Positions 4,276 through 56,590 of a stretch of 64,000 bases of DNA are shown in pieces. The DNA lies in NCBI GenBank assembly GCA_013360585.1, contig JABWBH010000009.1, positions 1 to 64,000 of the forward strand. Reading direction: 5' to 3'. This DNA is from Phycisphaerae bacterium. Lineage in GTDB: Bacteria; Planctomycetota; Phycisphaerae; UBA1845. A program made the position numbers and the translations under genes. Each line of letters starts with the position of its first letter. Position 1 is the stretch's first letter. Below the pieces are notes generated by a model. It worked only from the letters and a program-made list of their open reading frames with translations, did not search any database and had not been told where the DNA came from.

Positions 4276-5178
4276 ATGAACGCGGTCGAGCTGGAGCGGA
4301 TTTCCAAGACGTTCAAGAGCGTCAAAGCGGTCGATGACCTGAGCCTGAGCGTGCCGGAAGGGTCGATCTACGGCTTCATCGGTCCGAACGGTTCGGGCAA
4401 GACGACGACGCTGCGCATGATCATGCGCATCTACTACCCGGACGCCGGGTCGGGCGCGATCCGGATTCTCGGGAACGATCACAGCGCCGCGGCCAACGAC
4501 CGGATCGGATACCTGCCGGAGGAGCGCGGGCTGTACCGCAAGATGAAGGTCCGCGATCTGCTGAAATTTTTTCTCGAATTGCACGGTCATCGGCGGAATC
4601 TTTCGGAACCGATCCGGTCCTGGCTCGCGCGGTTGCGCCTGTCCGACTGGGCGGACAAGAAGGTCGAGGCGCTTTCGAAGGGCATGAGCCAGCGGATTCA
4701 GTTCATCGCCGCGGTGGTTCACTCGCCGAGGCTGCTGATCCTCGACGAACCGTTCTCCGGGTTGGACCCGGTGAGCACGGAGGACTTGCGCGAGGCGATC
4801 CTCGAGCTGCGCCGCAACGGCGCGACGGTTCTTTTTTCGACGCACGACATGCACATGGCCGAGAAAATGTGCGACTACGTGCTGATGATCTACCAGGGCC
4901 GGAAAGTGCTGGACGGCACGCTGGAGTCGATCCAGGCGCGCTACGGCGCGGACACGCTGCGCGTCGCGGTGGAAGGGAACGGGCAAAGTCTCGCTTCGTT
5001 GCCGGGGGTCGAGCGCGTCGCGGATTTCGGGCGCCTGGCGGAACTGAAAATGCGCGACGGGACCGACCCGCAGCGCGTGCTTGAAGCGTTGATCGCCCGC
5101 GGGCGCGTCACCCACTTCGAACTGACGAGGCCCACGCTGCACGACATCTTCGTCCGCATCGCGCGACCGAAGGAGTGA
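4276..5178 (+). CDS. ABC transporter ATP-binding protein (NatA-like)
   Basis: Cytoplasmic ATPase of an ABC-2 type exporter. The 300-residue protein has Walker A GPNGSGKT (36-43), signature LSKGM (133-137), Walker B LLILDEP (153-159) and an H-loop in STHDMH. The C-terminal 80 residues fit the DUF4162-like extension of NatA-type ATPases. The next gene on the same strand encodes the matching permease, separated by about 130 bp that hold a heptad repeat and a hairpin. The pair matches the NatAB class of sodium or drug export systems. Substrate is not predictable. Confidence 0.93.
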   Translation: MNAVELERISKTFKSVKAVDDLSLSVPEGSIYGFIGPNGSGKTTTLRMIMRIYYPDAGSGAIRILGNDHSAAANDRIGYLPEERGLYRKMKVRDLLKFFLELHGHRRNLSEPIRSWLARLRLSDWADKKVEALSKGMSQRIQFIAAVVHSPRLLILDEPFSGLDPVSTEDLREAILELRRNGATVLFSTHDMHMAEKMCDYVLMIYQGRKVLDGTLESIQARYGADTLRVAVEGNGQSLASLPGVERVADFGRLAELKMRDGTDPQRVLEALIARGRVTHFELTRPTLHDIFVRIARPKE

Positions 5179-5225
5179 ACGTTGAAAGTCGAAAACTGAA
5201 AGTCGAACGTTGAAGCGTTGAAACG
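5177..5225 (+). repeat. heptad tandem repeat, GAANNNN units
   Basis: Starting within the stop codon of the ABC ATPase gene are the consecutive 7-bp units GAACGTT, GAAAGTC, GAAAACT, GAAAGTC, GAACGTT and GAAGCGT, then a degenerate end. Period 7 is clear by eye. It resembles the short tandemly repeated repetitive (STRR) heptamers known from cyanobacteria. A similar series lies inside the symporter gene at 51372-51415. Confidence 0.75.
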
Positions 5226-5251
5226 GAGCATCAAACACCTGGGCGAACCGT

Positions 5252-34635: not shown

Positions 34636-36924
34636 ATGAGGAGGATGGGTTCGGTCAGCGTGCGGATGTGCGCGACTGCGGCGACCTTGACGCTGGGTTG
34701 GGCGACGGCGGCGCACGGAGGCGAGAAGGCGGCGCCGGCCGCGTCCGGCGGCGAGGCGATGTTTGTCGAAGTCGCGGGGGATCGTGAGTTCTCGGGCCGG
34801 ATGATTGCCCGACCGGTGCAGGTCGAGGCGTGGGTTCTGGAGGGCAAGAGCGAGCGCAAAGCGGAGCGCCTGCGCGGTCGAGCGCAGGAGGCGCTGAGCG
34901 CCTTCACGGTGATCGAATACATCCCTCAAACCGATGAGACGATCTTCGAGGTGCCCGCGGACTCGGATGAGAACACCGTTGCGGCGCAGCTCCTGGCGAC
35001 CGGGAACTTCCAGTACGTCGAGCCGGACTGGATTCTTTATCCGATCGCGTGCCCGAACGACCCGCTGCTGGGCAATCAGTGGCACCACAACGCGAACCGG
35101 ATGAACTCGTGCGCCGGTTGGGATCTGCACACCGGCAACCCGACGGTGGCGGTGGGCATTTGCGACACGGGCATCCTGACGACCCACGAAGATCTGCTGC
35201 TGCACCGGCTTGAGGGTTACAACGCCGTCGATCAGCTCTGGGAGTCGCAGGGCGGGCAGATCGGTCCGGTGCATCCGCACGGAACACAGACGACGGGCTG
35301 CGCGGCCGCCAACGGTAACAACGGTCGCGGGGTCTCCGGCGTGGGCTGGAACCTGTCGCACCGGATGATGCGGGTGAGCAACAGCAGCGGCGGCGGGTCG
35401 AGCTCTTCGATCCTCAACCACGCGGCGCGGACGGCGGTCGAGAACGGATGCAAGGTCGCCAGCGTGTCCTACAGCGGCGTGGACTCCTCCACGAACCTGA
35501 CGACCGCGACGTACATCAAGTCGATCGGGGGCCTGCTGGTCTGGGCGGCGGGGAACGACAACCGCAATCTCACGTTCTCGAACCGCGACAGCGACGACAT
35601 CATCGTGGCGGGCGCGACGGATTCGAACGACGCCAAGGCGAGTTTCTCCGCTTACGGTCCGATGGTGGACGTCGTCGCGCCGGGCGTGAGCGTGGCGACC
35701 ACGTCGTCCAGCTCGAACACGTCCTACGCCGCGGTCAGCGGCACGAGCTTCGCCTGTCCGCTGACGGCGGGGATGTGCGCGATGATCTGGTCGGCGAATC
35801 CGTCGCTGACGCCGGATGAGGTCGAGGCGGTGCTGAAAGCGTCGTGCGATGATCTGGGCGCCTCCGGCGTGGACAACACGTTCGGGTACGGACGCATCGA
35901 GCTTCTGCTGGCGATGCAGAACGCCGGCGGCGGCGGGATCACCGACTGCAACAACAACGGCGTGGATGACGCTGAGGACATCAGCAACGGCACGAGCGAA
36001 GACTGCAACGGAAACGGCGTGCCCGACGAGTGCGATCTGGCGGACGGCACGAGCGAAGACTGCAACGGAAACAGCGTGCCTGACGAGTGCGACATCGCTA
36101 ACGGCACGAGCCAGGACGCCAACGGAAACGGCGTGCCCGACGAGTGTGATCCCGAACCCGGCGTGGGCACGTGGATGTCCTTCACAGCGGACACGAGCGT
36201 GCCCGGCGTCGGAACCGCGGCGAACGAGGACATCGTCTCCTACGACGCGAATACCGGGACGTGGTCGCTGATCTTCGACGGCAGCGACGTGGGGCTGGGC
36301 GGGTTGGCGATCGACGGGATGGCGGTGCTGTCCGGCGGCGACCTCCTCCTGTCTTTCACCGCCGCGGCGACGTTCTCGAGCATCGGCACCGTGGACGACA
36401 GCGACATCGTTCGCTTCACGCCGACCTCGCTCGGTGCGAACACGGCGGGGACGTTCTCGATGTACTTCGACGGCAGTGACGTGGGGTTGTCCACTTCCGA
36501 CGAAGATGTGGACGCGATCTCGATCGACGCGTCCGGACGCCTCATCATTTCGACCCTCGGGGCGTGCTCGATGAACGGCGCGAGCGGTCAGGACGAGGAT
36601 CTCTTCACGTTCAACGCGACGTCCCTCGGATCGAACACCGCGGGGACGTTCAGTCTCCTCTTTGACGGCAGCGACGTGGGCCTCGGCTCCAACAGCAGCG
36701 AGGATGTGGACGCCGCCGCGTGGACGAGCGCGGGAACGATCCTGCTTTCGACGCTCGGGTCGTTCTCGGTTCCCGGCTTGTCCGGCGCGAACGAGGACGT
36801 GTTCCAGTTCACGCCGACCTCGCTGGGCGGAACGACCGCCGGTTCGTACAACATGGTGCTGGACCTGAGCACGCTCGGAATCAGCACAGGGGCGGACGTG
36901 GCCGCCGTTGAGGTGGCGAACTGA
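34636..36924 (+). CDS. secreted subtilisin-like serine protease with Asp/Cys-rich repeats
   Basis: 762 residues from ATG 34636, which has AAGGGGGG upstream and begins a signal peptide (cleavage near AAHGG). The S8 catalytic residues are Asp177 (CDTG), His215 (PHGTQ), Asn307 (AAGND) and Ser371 (SGTSFACP). A propeptide-like region precedes them (about 40-135). Residues about 437-508 hold 20-residue units like NGTSEDCNGNGVPDECD, a thrombospondin type-3-like calcium-binding motif frequent in planctomycetes. The last 250 residues form three units that each include FDGSDVGL. Likely an extracellular scavenging protease. Confidence 0.94.
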   Translation: MRRMGSVSVRMCATAATLTLGWATAAHGGEKAAPAASGGEAMFVEVAGDREFSGRMIARPVQVEAWVLEGKSERKAERLRGRAQEALSAFTVIEYIPQTDETIFEVPADSDENTVAAQLLATGNFQYVEPDWILYPIACPNDPLLGNQWHHNANRMNSCAGWDLHTGNPTVAVGICDTGILTTHEDLLLHRLEGYNAVDQLWESQGGQIGPVHPHGTQTTGCAAANGNNGRGVSGVGWNLSHRMMRVSNSSGGGSSSSILNHAARTAVENGCKVASVSYSGVDSSTNLTTATYIKSIGGLLVWAAGNDNRNLTFSNRDSDDIIVAGATDSNDAKASFSAYGPMVDVVAPGVSVATTSSSSNTSYAAVSGTSFACPLTAGMCAMIWSANPSLTPDEVEAVLKASCDDLGASGVDNTFGYGRIELLLAMQNAGGGGITDCNNNGVDDAEDISNGTSEDCNGNGVPDECDLADGTSEDCNGNSVPDECDIANGTSQDANGNGVPDECDPEPGVGTWMSFTADTSVPGVGTAANEDIVSYDANTGTWSLIFDGSDVGLGGLAIDGMAVLSGGDLLLSFTAAATFSSIGTVDDSDIVRFTPTSLGANTAGTFSMYFDGSDVGLSTSDEDVDAISIDASGRLIISTLGACSMNGASGQDEDLFTFNATSLGSNTAGTFSLLFDGSDVGLGSNSSEDVDAAAWTSAGTILLSTLGSFSVPGLSGANEDVFQFTPTSLGGTTAGSYNMVLDLSTLGISTGADVAAVEVAN
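35986..36153 (+). repeat. 60-bp coding repeats for DCNGNGVPDECD units
   Basis: Three tandem near-identical 60-bp units inside the protease gene, each encoding about NGTSEDCNGNGVPDECD plus three residues. The third unit has lost the first Cys (QDANGNG). Confidence 0.75.
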
Positions 36925-50200: not shown

Positions 50201-50252
50201 GAGCGACCCTGCGGAGCGACCCTGCGGAGCGACCCTGCGGAGCGACCGTCGC
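50201..50252. repeat. 13-bp tandem repeat, three and a half copies
   Basis: GAGCGACCCTGCG occurs at 50201, 50214 and 50227, with a changed fourth copy at 50240. It lies between two genes on the minus strand, so it may be transcribed in the leader of the aldehyde dehydrogenase gene. Confidence 0.85.
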
Positions 50253-50331: not shown

Positions 50332-52314
50332 TCACCCCGCCGGGAAGAACCGGACGACGGTGCTCCGGGTCGGGGGGCGCGTCAGGAGCGACACCAGCAC
50401 CAGCGCCGCCGTCGCCGCCAGCACCATCGGGCACGCGGGCACGACCGCCCACGCGTGACCCAGCCCCGGCAGCGGGACCAGCGGCTCCATCGGCGCGCTG
50501 AAGCCCGCCTCCAGCCCCGCCTTGACGTAGTAGTACACGCCCAGCCCGATCCCGGCGATGACGGAAGCGTAGGCCCCCCACTTCGTCATCCGCCGCCAGT
50601 ACAACGCCCCGATCACCAGCGGGAACAACGCCGAAAAACCGCTGAAGCACCAGATCGCCAGCCCGAAGATCGGCTTGGTCTCGCGCAGCACCAACGTCAG
50701 CACCCACGAGGCGAGCACGACCGCGATGACGAAAAGCCGTCCGAAGAGCAAACGTTGACGATCCGTCATCGCATCATGCTTGACGTAGTGATCCACGACG
50801 TCGTGCGTGAACATCGAGCCGAGACTGAGGAACTGCGCGTCCATCCCGCCGAGAATCGCCGCGAGGACGCCGGCCGCGAGCAGACCGCTGACGTAAGGGT
50901 TCTTCAGCGACGCGACCATCAATCCGAGCACCTGGTTGGCGTTGGCGTTCGGCATATCCGGCGTGAAAGGCACGATCGGCTTGCCCCCCGCGATCGCCGA
51001 GGTCGCCCAGATCCCGATCGCAATGCACGGCGCCCAGATGAGCATGATGAGCAGCGGGTGCAGCGTGACCGTCAGTCGGAAGGATTTCGCCGACCGCGCG
51101 GTCAGCCAGAGCTGAAACAGGTGCGGGAACATCGCCACCGAAAGCGGGATGAACCCGTAACTGAGGAACTCCAGCTCGGTCATCTCTTTCGGCTTGTGCG
51201 GTTTGAGGATGCCGACGCTCGATCGATCCGCGTCCGCCGCACCCGGACCGCGCCCCTCCCCCGGACCGCGGACCTCCGGTCCACCCTGCGAAGCCTCGCC
51301 GGAACCTTGAACCGACGGTCCGCCGCCCGAACCCGACGACCCACCGCCCTGGACGGCGCCTTGCGCCCCCGGTGGTTCGACCTTTTGACTTTCGACGTTC
51401 GACGGTTCGGTGTTCCGGGGTTGCAGCTCGTCGCCCGCACCGCCGGCGGCGCGAGTTGGCGGAACCGCTCCCTCACGACCGCGGTTCTGATAGGCCGTCC
51501 ACTCCGCCAGGCGCTGCTCATAAATCTGCTGATGCTCCGCGGTCACCGCGCGCGTCAGCTTGCTGGGGTTGTATTTCTGCACCATCTCCGTCGCCCGGGC
51601 GAAACCGCCGAGGCGGTCGGCGACGAAGTAGAACGTCACCACGCCGACGATGAGAAAAATGATCGTCTGCAACCCGTTCGCCCACGCCGTCGCCCGCGCT
51701 CCGCCCAGCCAGACGTACAACCACACCACCGCCGTGCAGACCAGCGTCGCCAGCCAGAAGGGGACCGCCCCGTGTCCGAGCATCGGCGCCCCGGCGGCGT
51801 CGAGCATCGGGAAGAGGTGAGGAAACGCCCCGCGCGTGGCGACGCCGATCATCGTCCCGGCGCCGAGAATCCCGAGGATGATGTAAGGCATCTGAAGCAG
51901 GGCGAGGATCGGGAAGAGCAGCACGCCGATATTGCGGGATTCGAGGCGGTCGCGGAAGAACTGAATCTGCGTCTGATATCCGTAACGCTTGCCCAGCGAC
52001 CAGAGCTTCGCGCCCACGAGGAAGAAGCACGCGGCATGAACGATCCCCGACCAGGACGCCATCTTCCCGTAGACGCCCACACCGCTCTTCCACGCCTCGC
52101 CGCTGCTGCCCTGAATCGCGAACGCCGTCATCGTCGTGCCGAAAACGGACAGCACCAGCAGCACCGGTCCGACGCCGCGCGAAGCGACGAAGTAATCCAC
52201 GGCCGTGCCCTTGAACACCGTCGTGCTGGCGACGCCCAGGAGGATCAGCGCCGCAAGATAAGCAACGATGATCCAGAGCTGAAGCTGCCCGGGAGGAAGA
52301 TCGGCGAGAAGCAT
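50332..52314 (-). CDS. sodium:solute symporter (SSS family) with long inserted linker
   Basis: 660 residues with 12-14 membrane helices, beginning LWIIVAYLAALILLGVAS. Family features include VLSVFGTTMTAFAIQG and SSGEAWKSGVGVYG near helix 2, KYNPSKLTRAV, and GGMDAQFLSLGS in the C-terminal half. The interior section about 265-385 is unlike the rest: low complexity, rich in Gly, Ser, Pro and Arg, without helix pattern. Its DNA contains a heptad-like series and a TCC-loop hairpin known from intergenic DNA here. It starts directly after the stop of its DUF3311 partner. Confidence 0.93.
   Translation of the reverse strand: MLLADLPPGQLQLWIIVAYLAALILLGVASTTVFKGTAVDYFVASRGVGPVLLVLSVFGTTMTAFAIQGSSGEAWKSGVGVYGKMASWSGIVHAACFFLVGAKLWSLGKRYGYQTQIQFFRDRLESRNIGVLLFPILALLQMPYIILGILGAGTMIGVATRGAFPHLFPMLDAAGAPMLGHGAVPFWLATLVCTAVVWLYVWLGGARATAWANGLQTIIFLIVGVVTFYFVADRLGGFARATEMVQKYNPSKLTRAVTAEHQQIYEQRLAEWTAYQNRGREGAVPPTRAAGGAGDELQPRNTEPSNVESQKVEPPGAQGAVQGGGSSGSGGGPSVQGSGEASQGGPEVRGPGEGRGPGAADADRSSVGILKPHKPKEMTELEFLSYGFIPLSVAMFPHLFQLWLTARSAKSFRLTVTLHPLLIMLIWAPCIAIGIWATSAIAGGKPIVPFTPDMPNANANQVLGLMVASLKNPYVSGLLAAGVLAAILGGMDAQFLSLGSMFTHDVVDHYVKHDAMTDRQRLLFGRLFVIAVVLASWVLTLVLRETKPIFGLAIWCFSGFSALFPLVIGALYWRRMTKWGAYASVIAGIGLGVYYYVKAGLEAGFSAPMEPLVPLPGLGHAWAVVPACPMVLAATAALVLVSLLTRPPTRSTVVRFFPAG
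51265..51285. repeat. TCC-loop hairpin element inside the symporter gene
   Basis: GCGGACCTCCGGTCC is the same hairpin core found between genes at 31654, 46636, 56564 and 61631, here within the coding frame of the symporter linker. Confidence 0.7.
51372..51415 (-). repeat. heptad-like repeat inside the symporter gene
   Basis: Read on the minus strand the units are GAACACC, GAACCGT(C), GAACGTC, GAAAGTC and AAAAGGT(C), close to the series at 5177-5225. It encodes NTEPSNVESQKVEP in the symporter linker. Confidence 0.6.
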
Positions 52315-56563: not shown

Positions 56564-56590
56564 CGGATCACGGACCTCCGGTCCGCACCC
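56564..56590. repeat. TCC-loop hairpin element, clearest copy
   Basis: ACGGACCTCCGGTCCGC has a 6-bp perfect stem CGGACC/GGTCCG with loop TCC, followed by ACCC and preceded by GGATC. It lies between the DDAH-like and cysteine-cluster genes. Confidence 0.65.

Follow-up and report, generated by a model that had tools for sequence, protein, structure and literature searches.

A sodium:solute symporter gene in the 64,000-nt stretch of planctomycete DNA analyzed here (the window) contains, within its reading frame, short repeats that otherwise lie mainly between genes. This raises the question of how such DNA came to be translated inside a membrane protein, in what order it arrived and whether it serves the protein. 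A first-pass annotation of the window had proposed that mobile or slipping intergenic elements, a hairpin and a GAACGTC/GAAAGTC heptad series, entered a loop between membrane helices and were tolerated there.

The symporter gene and its long loop

The gene, the segment in question and a duplication within it are located as follows.
50332..52314, minus strand: SSF transporter gene, 660 aa (Pfam PF00474, E=1e-34; best PDB folds SGLT/CHT/NIS)
51214..51471, minus strand: disordered, genus-specific linker between membrane helices, residues 281/282-367, pLDDT below 50, under relaxed selection
51242..51277, minus strand: 18-nt tandem duplication overlapping R2 (Tandem Repeats Finder and alignment)

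The source genome is a draft of 4.24 Mb in 84 contigs. The PF00474 score of the symporter was 120.6 bits against a curated cut-off of 22.8, placing it among the SSF sodium:solute symporters, and the top Foldseek matches (SGLT2, SGLT1, CHT1, SiaT, and NIS, with E values down to 1e-12) indicated the LeuT-type SGLT fold. No specific NCBIfam match above cut-offs named a substrate, and an Rfam scan of the window returned one tRNA and nothing else. The AlphaFold2 model, for which an alignment of 17 homologues was used as input, consists mostly of helices, except that almost every residue from 281 to 367 had a pLDDT below 50, with helices flanking both sides. The absence of a helix pattern reported in the first-pass annotation was thus borne out; its extent of about 110 codons was slightly overstated, as the stretch covers approximately 87 codons (51214-51471). 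By the topology of PutP, the loop is presumably extracytoplasmic, between TM6 and TM7.

Loop length was measured between the conserved blocks RATEMVQ and FLSYGFIPLSV in 35 homologues. The alignment that had been suggested as a check showed loops of mostly 63 to 77 aa in homologues at 44 to 60% identity and of 73 to 98 aa in nearer genera, compared with 116 to 154 aa within the genus (154 in the source genome, 148 in BroJett003, 116 in Bin_14R, and 133 in SJ659). A linker of equal length and sequence, which would have spoken against the proposed entry, was seen in none of the distant homologues compared; the loops of the relatives are variable in length and rich in Ala, Pro, and Ser. The closest named relative is the Planctomycetota assembly BroJett003, whose symporter shares 95% protein identity overall with that of the source genome. 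The linker is also present in this independent assembly, and alignment showed that the 18-nt tandem duplication explains the 6-aa difference in length between the two. The reading frame is open and stop-free in all four genus members, each of them represented by a draft assembly. When the source gene was compared with those of BroJett003, Bin_14R, and SJ659, core omega was 0.12, 0.10, and 0.20 and linker omega was 0.36, 1.0, and 0.67, respectively, the last value being derived from poorly aligned, saturated codons. These ratios indicate that the helices are under purifying selection and the loop is under relaxed selection.

Two further tandem repeats were observed in the window. A 13-nt unit, GAGCGACCCTGCG, is repeated perfectly 3.6 times shortly downstream of the symporter gene (50201-50247), and a 57-nt unit, a multiple of three, is present in 2.9 copies at 35986-36151, within the gene at 34645-36924.

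R2, the hairpin of the loop, is an intergenic repeat

The copies of R2 in the window are as follows.
51262..51284, plus strand: R2 copy CGGACCGCGGACCTCCGGTCCAC; the gene strand reads GGPEVRGP; matrix score 31.7
51301..51324, plus strand: second R2 copy, degenerate and 39 nt apart from the main one; matrix score 5.3
56571..56584, plus strand: intergenic R2, the other exact copy of the window (exact 14-mer match)

R2 is the hairpin CGGATCGCGGACCTCCGGTCCGC of the first-pass annotation, and, as stated there, it does occur inside the symporter gene, with the 14-mer CGGACCTCCGGTCC exactly at 51269-51282. The source genome (G000; G000 to G003 are the four genus genomes) harbors 46 exact copies of the 14-mer, compared with none of the reversed control; an additional 31 were found in G001 and 15 in G003, with none in G002 and 0 to 2 in 56 other genomes. 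From the flanks of the copies a longer unit, CGGATCG-CGGACCTCCGGTCC-GC, was derived, and with up to three mismatches this 23-nt form is present in 96, 69, 1, and 43 copies in G000, G001, G002, and G003, respectively, all controls being 0. Genes were called with our own codon-usage model, and the genome was sampled by pattern searches and by stretches around repeat copies. By these calls, 45 of the 46 exact copies are intergenic, the sole exception being that in the symporter, as are all 20 of the more diverged copies examined in addition. R2 also occurs in clusters with a spacing of approximately 26 to 45 nt. Between co-directional genes, intergenic copies lie along the direction of the genes 33 times and against it nine times, and the in-gene copies are likewise oriented along it. 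At five loci, R2 was observed as part of an extended conserved stretch, GTCCCGAGTTGCAAATTCGTTGCTCAATTCGGGA...R2...GGCGGAGCAGAGCTCCGCGCTCC, in which three successive hairpins are possible and which may represent a larger composite element or RNA.

A scoring matrix was built from 76 intergenic copies, with the symporter left out. The main and second sites scored 31.7 and 5.3 in the source genome, 27.0 and 12.9 in BroJett003, and 15.6 and 9.8 in Bin_14R; these sites are orthologous, and their spacing is 39 nt in all three, the pair forming a 39-nt (13-aa) tandem repeat at 51247-51324. Nothing above 0 was found in the SJ659 linker or in five more distant linkers, so R2 is recognizable in the linkers of exactly the three genus members that are rich in it. 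Only three matches scored 14 or more in 189 kb of coding sequence, and all three are in-gene R2 copies discussed here. The score of the source copy was reached by 0 of 1,000 codon-order shuffles and by 5 of 3,000 synonymous resamplings; that of BroJett003 was reached by 58 of 3,000 synonymous resamplings, a null in which the protein sequence is left unchanged, although that sequence may itself stem from the element.

The source and BroJett003 copies each differ from the 22-nt R2 core by one base, at different positions. As the base lost in one is retained in the other and in Bin_14R, their common ancestor reads as a perfect core, with a score of 34 to 36. The Bin_14R copy has changed at four of 22 positions, with three mismatches in the 14-mer, and for this site, too, we infer an ancestral R2 state. 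In the source genome, the outer pair of the copy is gone and the sequence refolds; the copies of BroJett003 and Bin_14R carry mismatches. The proposed entry of intergenic elements into a tolerant loop was supported, but the decayed orthologous copies in BroJett003 and Bin_14R indicate that the hairpin is no fresh arrival.

A third, older repeat in the linker

51462..51489, minus strand: R1, REP-like palindrome CAGAACCGCGGTCGTGAGGGAGCGGTTC, reads QNRGREGAV; three mismatches to the R1 consensus

Both repeat kinds previously noted in the linker are present, but a third and older one, the REP-like R1 (CAGAGCCGCGACCGTNAGGGAGCG) at the 5' end of the linker, had been overlooked. It was found by BLAST of linker DNA within the genus, which also matched the R2 sites and the GAA array of SJ659. 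R1 is an abundant repeat throughout the order: it was present in 32 of the 40 genomes searched, with 69, 39, 286, and 334 copies in G000, G001, G002, and G003, respectively, and up to 395 in relatives; the reversed control gave no matches. All four genus linkers carry it in frame 0, reading QNRGREGA, QSQGREGA, QSRARKEA, and QSRDRKEA. The Bin_14R copy is identical to a common R1 variant, the SJ659 copy has one mismatch, and a match was reached by 0 of 300 codon shuffles. The source copy still folds. In the linker of G046, from another family, an R1-like stretch on the opposite strand (NALPDGRSS, four mismatches) was matched by 18 of 300 sequences of the synonymous null and weakly hints at an independent capture of R1. 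In the SJ659 linker, a 15-nt tandem of about four copies resembles the start of R1 (CAGAGCCGCG), as if the edge of R1 had been amplified.

Of 69 sampled R1 copies, 55 are intergenic and 14 are inside called genes, where mostly two frames are used, QSRDREGA on the sense strand and an LPDGRGS-like reading on the opposite strand. As a palindrome of 20 to 40 nt with high copy number and mostly extragenic location, R1 conforms to the description of a REP. An association with RAYT (Y1_Tnp) genes was seen at three loci (L188, L193, and L199), where R1 lies near Y1_Tnp. No such association was found for R2 in the source genome, as the two Y1_Tnp places (C57:2916 and C77:149501) are each separated by more than 30 kb from the closest R2 copy listed. 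The R1 core was not found in print in the bacterial literature searched.

GAA-phased arrays

The array of the linker and one of like kind elsewhere in the window are as follows.
51375..51415, minus strand: GAA-phased 7/8-nt array, reads NTEPSNVESQKVE
5169..5226, plus strand: intergenic GAA array, an eight-unit chain directly after a gene

The GAACGTC/GAAAGTC series is present at 51375-51415, although it is a GAA-phased array of mixed 7- and 8-nt steps rather than a clean heptad series (on the minus strand, GAACACC GAACCGTC GAACGTC GAAAGTC AAAAGGTC GAAC). It is shared with BroJett003 and is absent from Bin_14R. Chains of at least four GAA at 7- or 8-nt steps were found six times between genes and once in coding sequence, in the symporter, in 254 kb sampled, compared with zero and one for a control motif; in other sampled loci, 18 of 23 chains were intergenic, and in SJ659 a chain can reach 20 units. 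The view that the repeats of the loop are otherwise found between genes holds for R2 (45 of 46 exact copies), and the GAA chains are mainly intergenic (six of seven in the sampled DNA of the source genome). GAACGTC-like matches in four other genes (L002, L004, L005, and L116) were single and chance-like.

By codon shuffling, the GAA series of the linker had a P value of 0.0002, and by synonymous resampling one of 0.045, so that alone it is modestly significant; the SJ659 linker has its own five-unit, 8-nt GAA series with a synonymous P value of 0.002. Since a step of 7 or 8 nt cannot arise as a protein repeat, a DNA-level process probably made the array, whether copied in or slipped in place. 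With a synonymous P value of about 0.05 in the source species, the array may reflect in situ slippage or be partly due to chance.

R1 and R2 in other proteins

Five in-gene hairpin matches with at most one mismatch were considered. In ArgC of the source genome (L168/L254) and its BroJett003 orthologue (L255), eight extra residues, PSGPEFRD and PGAPEVRD, derive from R2. The insertion is a clean 24 nt, common to two independent assemblies, and the empty site is found in three relatives, namely, Bin_14R, SJ659, and one more distant. A glycosyltransferase carries GPEVCEP from R2 in an extra linker, and its Bin_14R counterpart lacks that linker. Two matches were not counted as captures: L176 did not qualify as R2 when rescored with the extended matrix, and L180 coincides with a gene start that is itself doubtful. 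All in-gene R2 copies (symporter, ArgC, glycosyltransferase, and the doubtful gene start) use one strand and frame, reading GPEVRDP-like. In SJ659, the middle domain of an acyl-CoA dehydrogenase (L206) contains the single R2 of that genome and, adjacent to it, two copies of R1, all in frame.

R1 was also observed in frame in a class II tRNA synthetase with an anticodon-binding domain, a leucyl-tRNA synthetase, a DNA methylase, and a TIM-barrel protein; loci with R1 in frame in core proteins are L312 (G000:C5), L306 (G038), L206 (SJ659), L304, and L316. Among the R1-bearing proteins, tRNA synthetases seem to be overrepresented.

Y1 transposase domains within tRNA synthetase genes

Y1_Tnp (IS200-like/RAYT) domains were observed in frame inside the open reading frames of alanyl-, valyl-, and leucyl-tRNA synthetases within the genus. 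The alanyl case is a 1,450-aa open frame in the source genome (L193, G000:C77:148001-151228) with in-frame R1 on its flanks and an HVH motif that, by eye, is apparently intact. The valyl frame is 1,561 aa and the leucyl frames are 1,291 and 1,326 aa in length (L202, G003:C2; L203, G003:C11; L196, G002:C26). Both domains were confirmed with Pfam for L193 and L202, the Y1 match of L203 fell slightly short of the cut-off, and for L196 the assignment was made from the translated sequence. None of the literature searched dealt jointly with planctomycetes, tRNA synthetases, and in-frame transposases.

A wider proposal, which we consider evenly poised between right and wrong, is that a RAYT-type system regularly inserts itself into the proteins of Phycisphaerales-type planctomycetes. 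R1 and R2 would enter loops, with a preference for certain frames free of stops (QSRDREGA, SLPDGRGS, or GPEVRDP), and the extreme would be a whole Y1 domain flanked by in-frame REPs and placed in the fashion of an intein, though presumably without splicing, within essential aminoacyl-tRNA synthetases. If true, residence in a tRNA synthetase would shelter the transposase from deletion.

Origin of the loop

The loop is very probably a mosaic of short, mainly intergenic repeats that were captured in frame stepwise and then decayed. R1 would have entered first, before the genus split, most likely by REP/RAYT-type transposition; that a RAYT-type Y1 transposase moved it is suggested by R1 copies adjoining Y1 genes. 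R2 would have followed before Bin_14R split off, brought in by some mover, and then been duplicated. The GAA array would be a later local growth, and slippage or local duplication may have produced it as well as the 39-nt and 18-nt duplications. The frame has been kept, and the captured repeats would have decayed under the relaxed selection on the loop. Capture by transposition is read from sequence comparison, for which the filled and empty sites of ArgC are the best proxy. The inserts were probably tolerated because the loop is disordered and lies outside the transport core, on what we take to be the extracytoplasmic side; the loop itself most likely serves no specific function.

The loop might instead be an ordinary low-complexity expansion by slippage or tandem duplication of its GC-rich Gly/Pro/Glu codons, with its likeness to intergenic repeats arising by convergence. 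It does contain the 39-nt and 18-nt tandem duplications, SJ659 has the 15-nt tandem of its own, the loops of relatives vary in length and are Ala/Pro/Ser-rich, and drift could bring a GC-rich Gly/Pro repeat close to the hairpin sequence. Convergence was in fact first favored for the hairpin, given the three mismatches in the Bin_14R 14-mer and the 39-nt tandem. It was dropped because the symporter-free matrix scores high in three species, the reconstructed ancestor equals the consensus, and the ArgC insertion is clean. Expansion is unlikely also in that codon-order shuffles never reached the R2 (0/1,000) or R1 (0/300) match, R1 in Bin_14R is exactly a common variant, R2 in linkers tracks R2 in genomes, and both repeats are in frame in unrelated proteins. 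An assembly or frameshift artefact, or a pseudogene, is hardly credible: although only draft assemblies are available, the linker recurs in the independent BroJett003 assembly, making assembly error very unlikely, and four intact, stop-free frames have a core omega of about 0.1 to 0.2.

The repeats could also be more than tolerated. As RNA or DNA elements kept in the gene, such as mRNA hairpins or protein-binding sites, they would fit the orientation bias of R2 (33 versus 9, with in-gene copies alike) and the R1 copy that still folds. Such a role is nevertheless very doubtful, as the source R2, its outer pair lost, refolds, the BroJett003 and Bin_14R copies have mismatches, and a linker omega near 1 against Bin_14R implies little constraint. 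If, rather, the loop had acquired a protein function such as partner binding or surface exposure, the repeats would be raw material, with selection on length or flexibility, and its retention, long and in frame, in four of four genus members would be expected. Its sequence and length, however, differ strongly between species, linker omega ranges from 0.36 to 1.0, and wider relatives lack a long loop, so we regard an acquired function as improbable. In-frame capture followed by decay remains our preferred reading.

Comparison with known systems

The symporter shares its Pfam family and fold with the SSF transporters SGLT, PutP, SiaT, and NIS, from which it differs by the extra disordered loop of about 87 residues. 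Among REPs, which include GTAG/CGTC families, some lie entirely within open reading frames, adding residues in likely linkers (PMC3733652). R1 and R2 resemble them as short palindromes with tens to hundreds of copies per genome, mostly intergenic, and R1 adjoins Y1 transposase genes. By eye, however, neither consensus carries a GTAG or CGTC tag at an end, no Y1 gene lies close to R2 in the source genome, and here three repeat classes share one loop. Heptameric tandem repeats of bacteria (PMC4692102) and the TAACTGA repeats of Beggiatoaceae (PMC4679880) are similar in that their units, about 7 nt long, form arrays between genes, whereas the arrays described here are degenerate and GAA-phased with mixed 7- and 8-nt steps, and one is translated inside a protein.

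Rickettsia palindromic elements (Ogata et al.), as outlined in PMC10969869, are in-frame palindromes with a recurring peptide in unrelated protein genes. The ArgC insertion with its empty sites parallels them, as does in-frame presence in both a symporter and an acyl-CoA dehydrogenase. The Rickettsia elements are about 100 to 150 bp long, compared with 23 to 28 nt (8 to 9 codons) for R1 and R2, belong to another phylum, and exceed in length both the 23-nt R2 and the 24-nt ArgC insertion. What is new here is that the units are shorter, that three repeat classes are layered in one loop, and that a species series and an empty site are available in planctomycetes. The locus provides a species-by-species example of new protein segments made from repeat DNA and not from existing genes, with an order of events in one tolerant loop: a first repeat, followed by another and finally by a tandem array. 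With filled and empty sites, the role of small palindromes in shaping bacterial proteins becomes directly testable outside Rickettsia.
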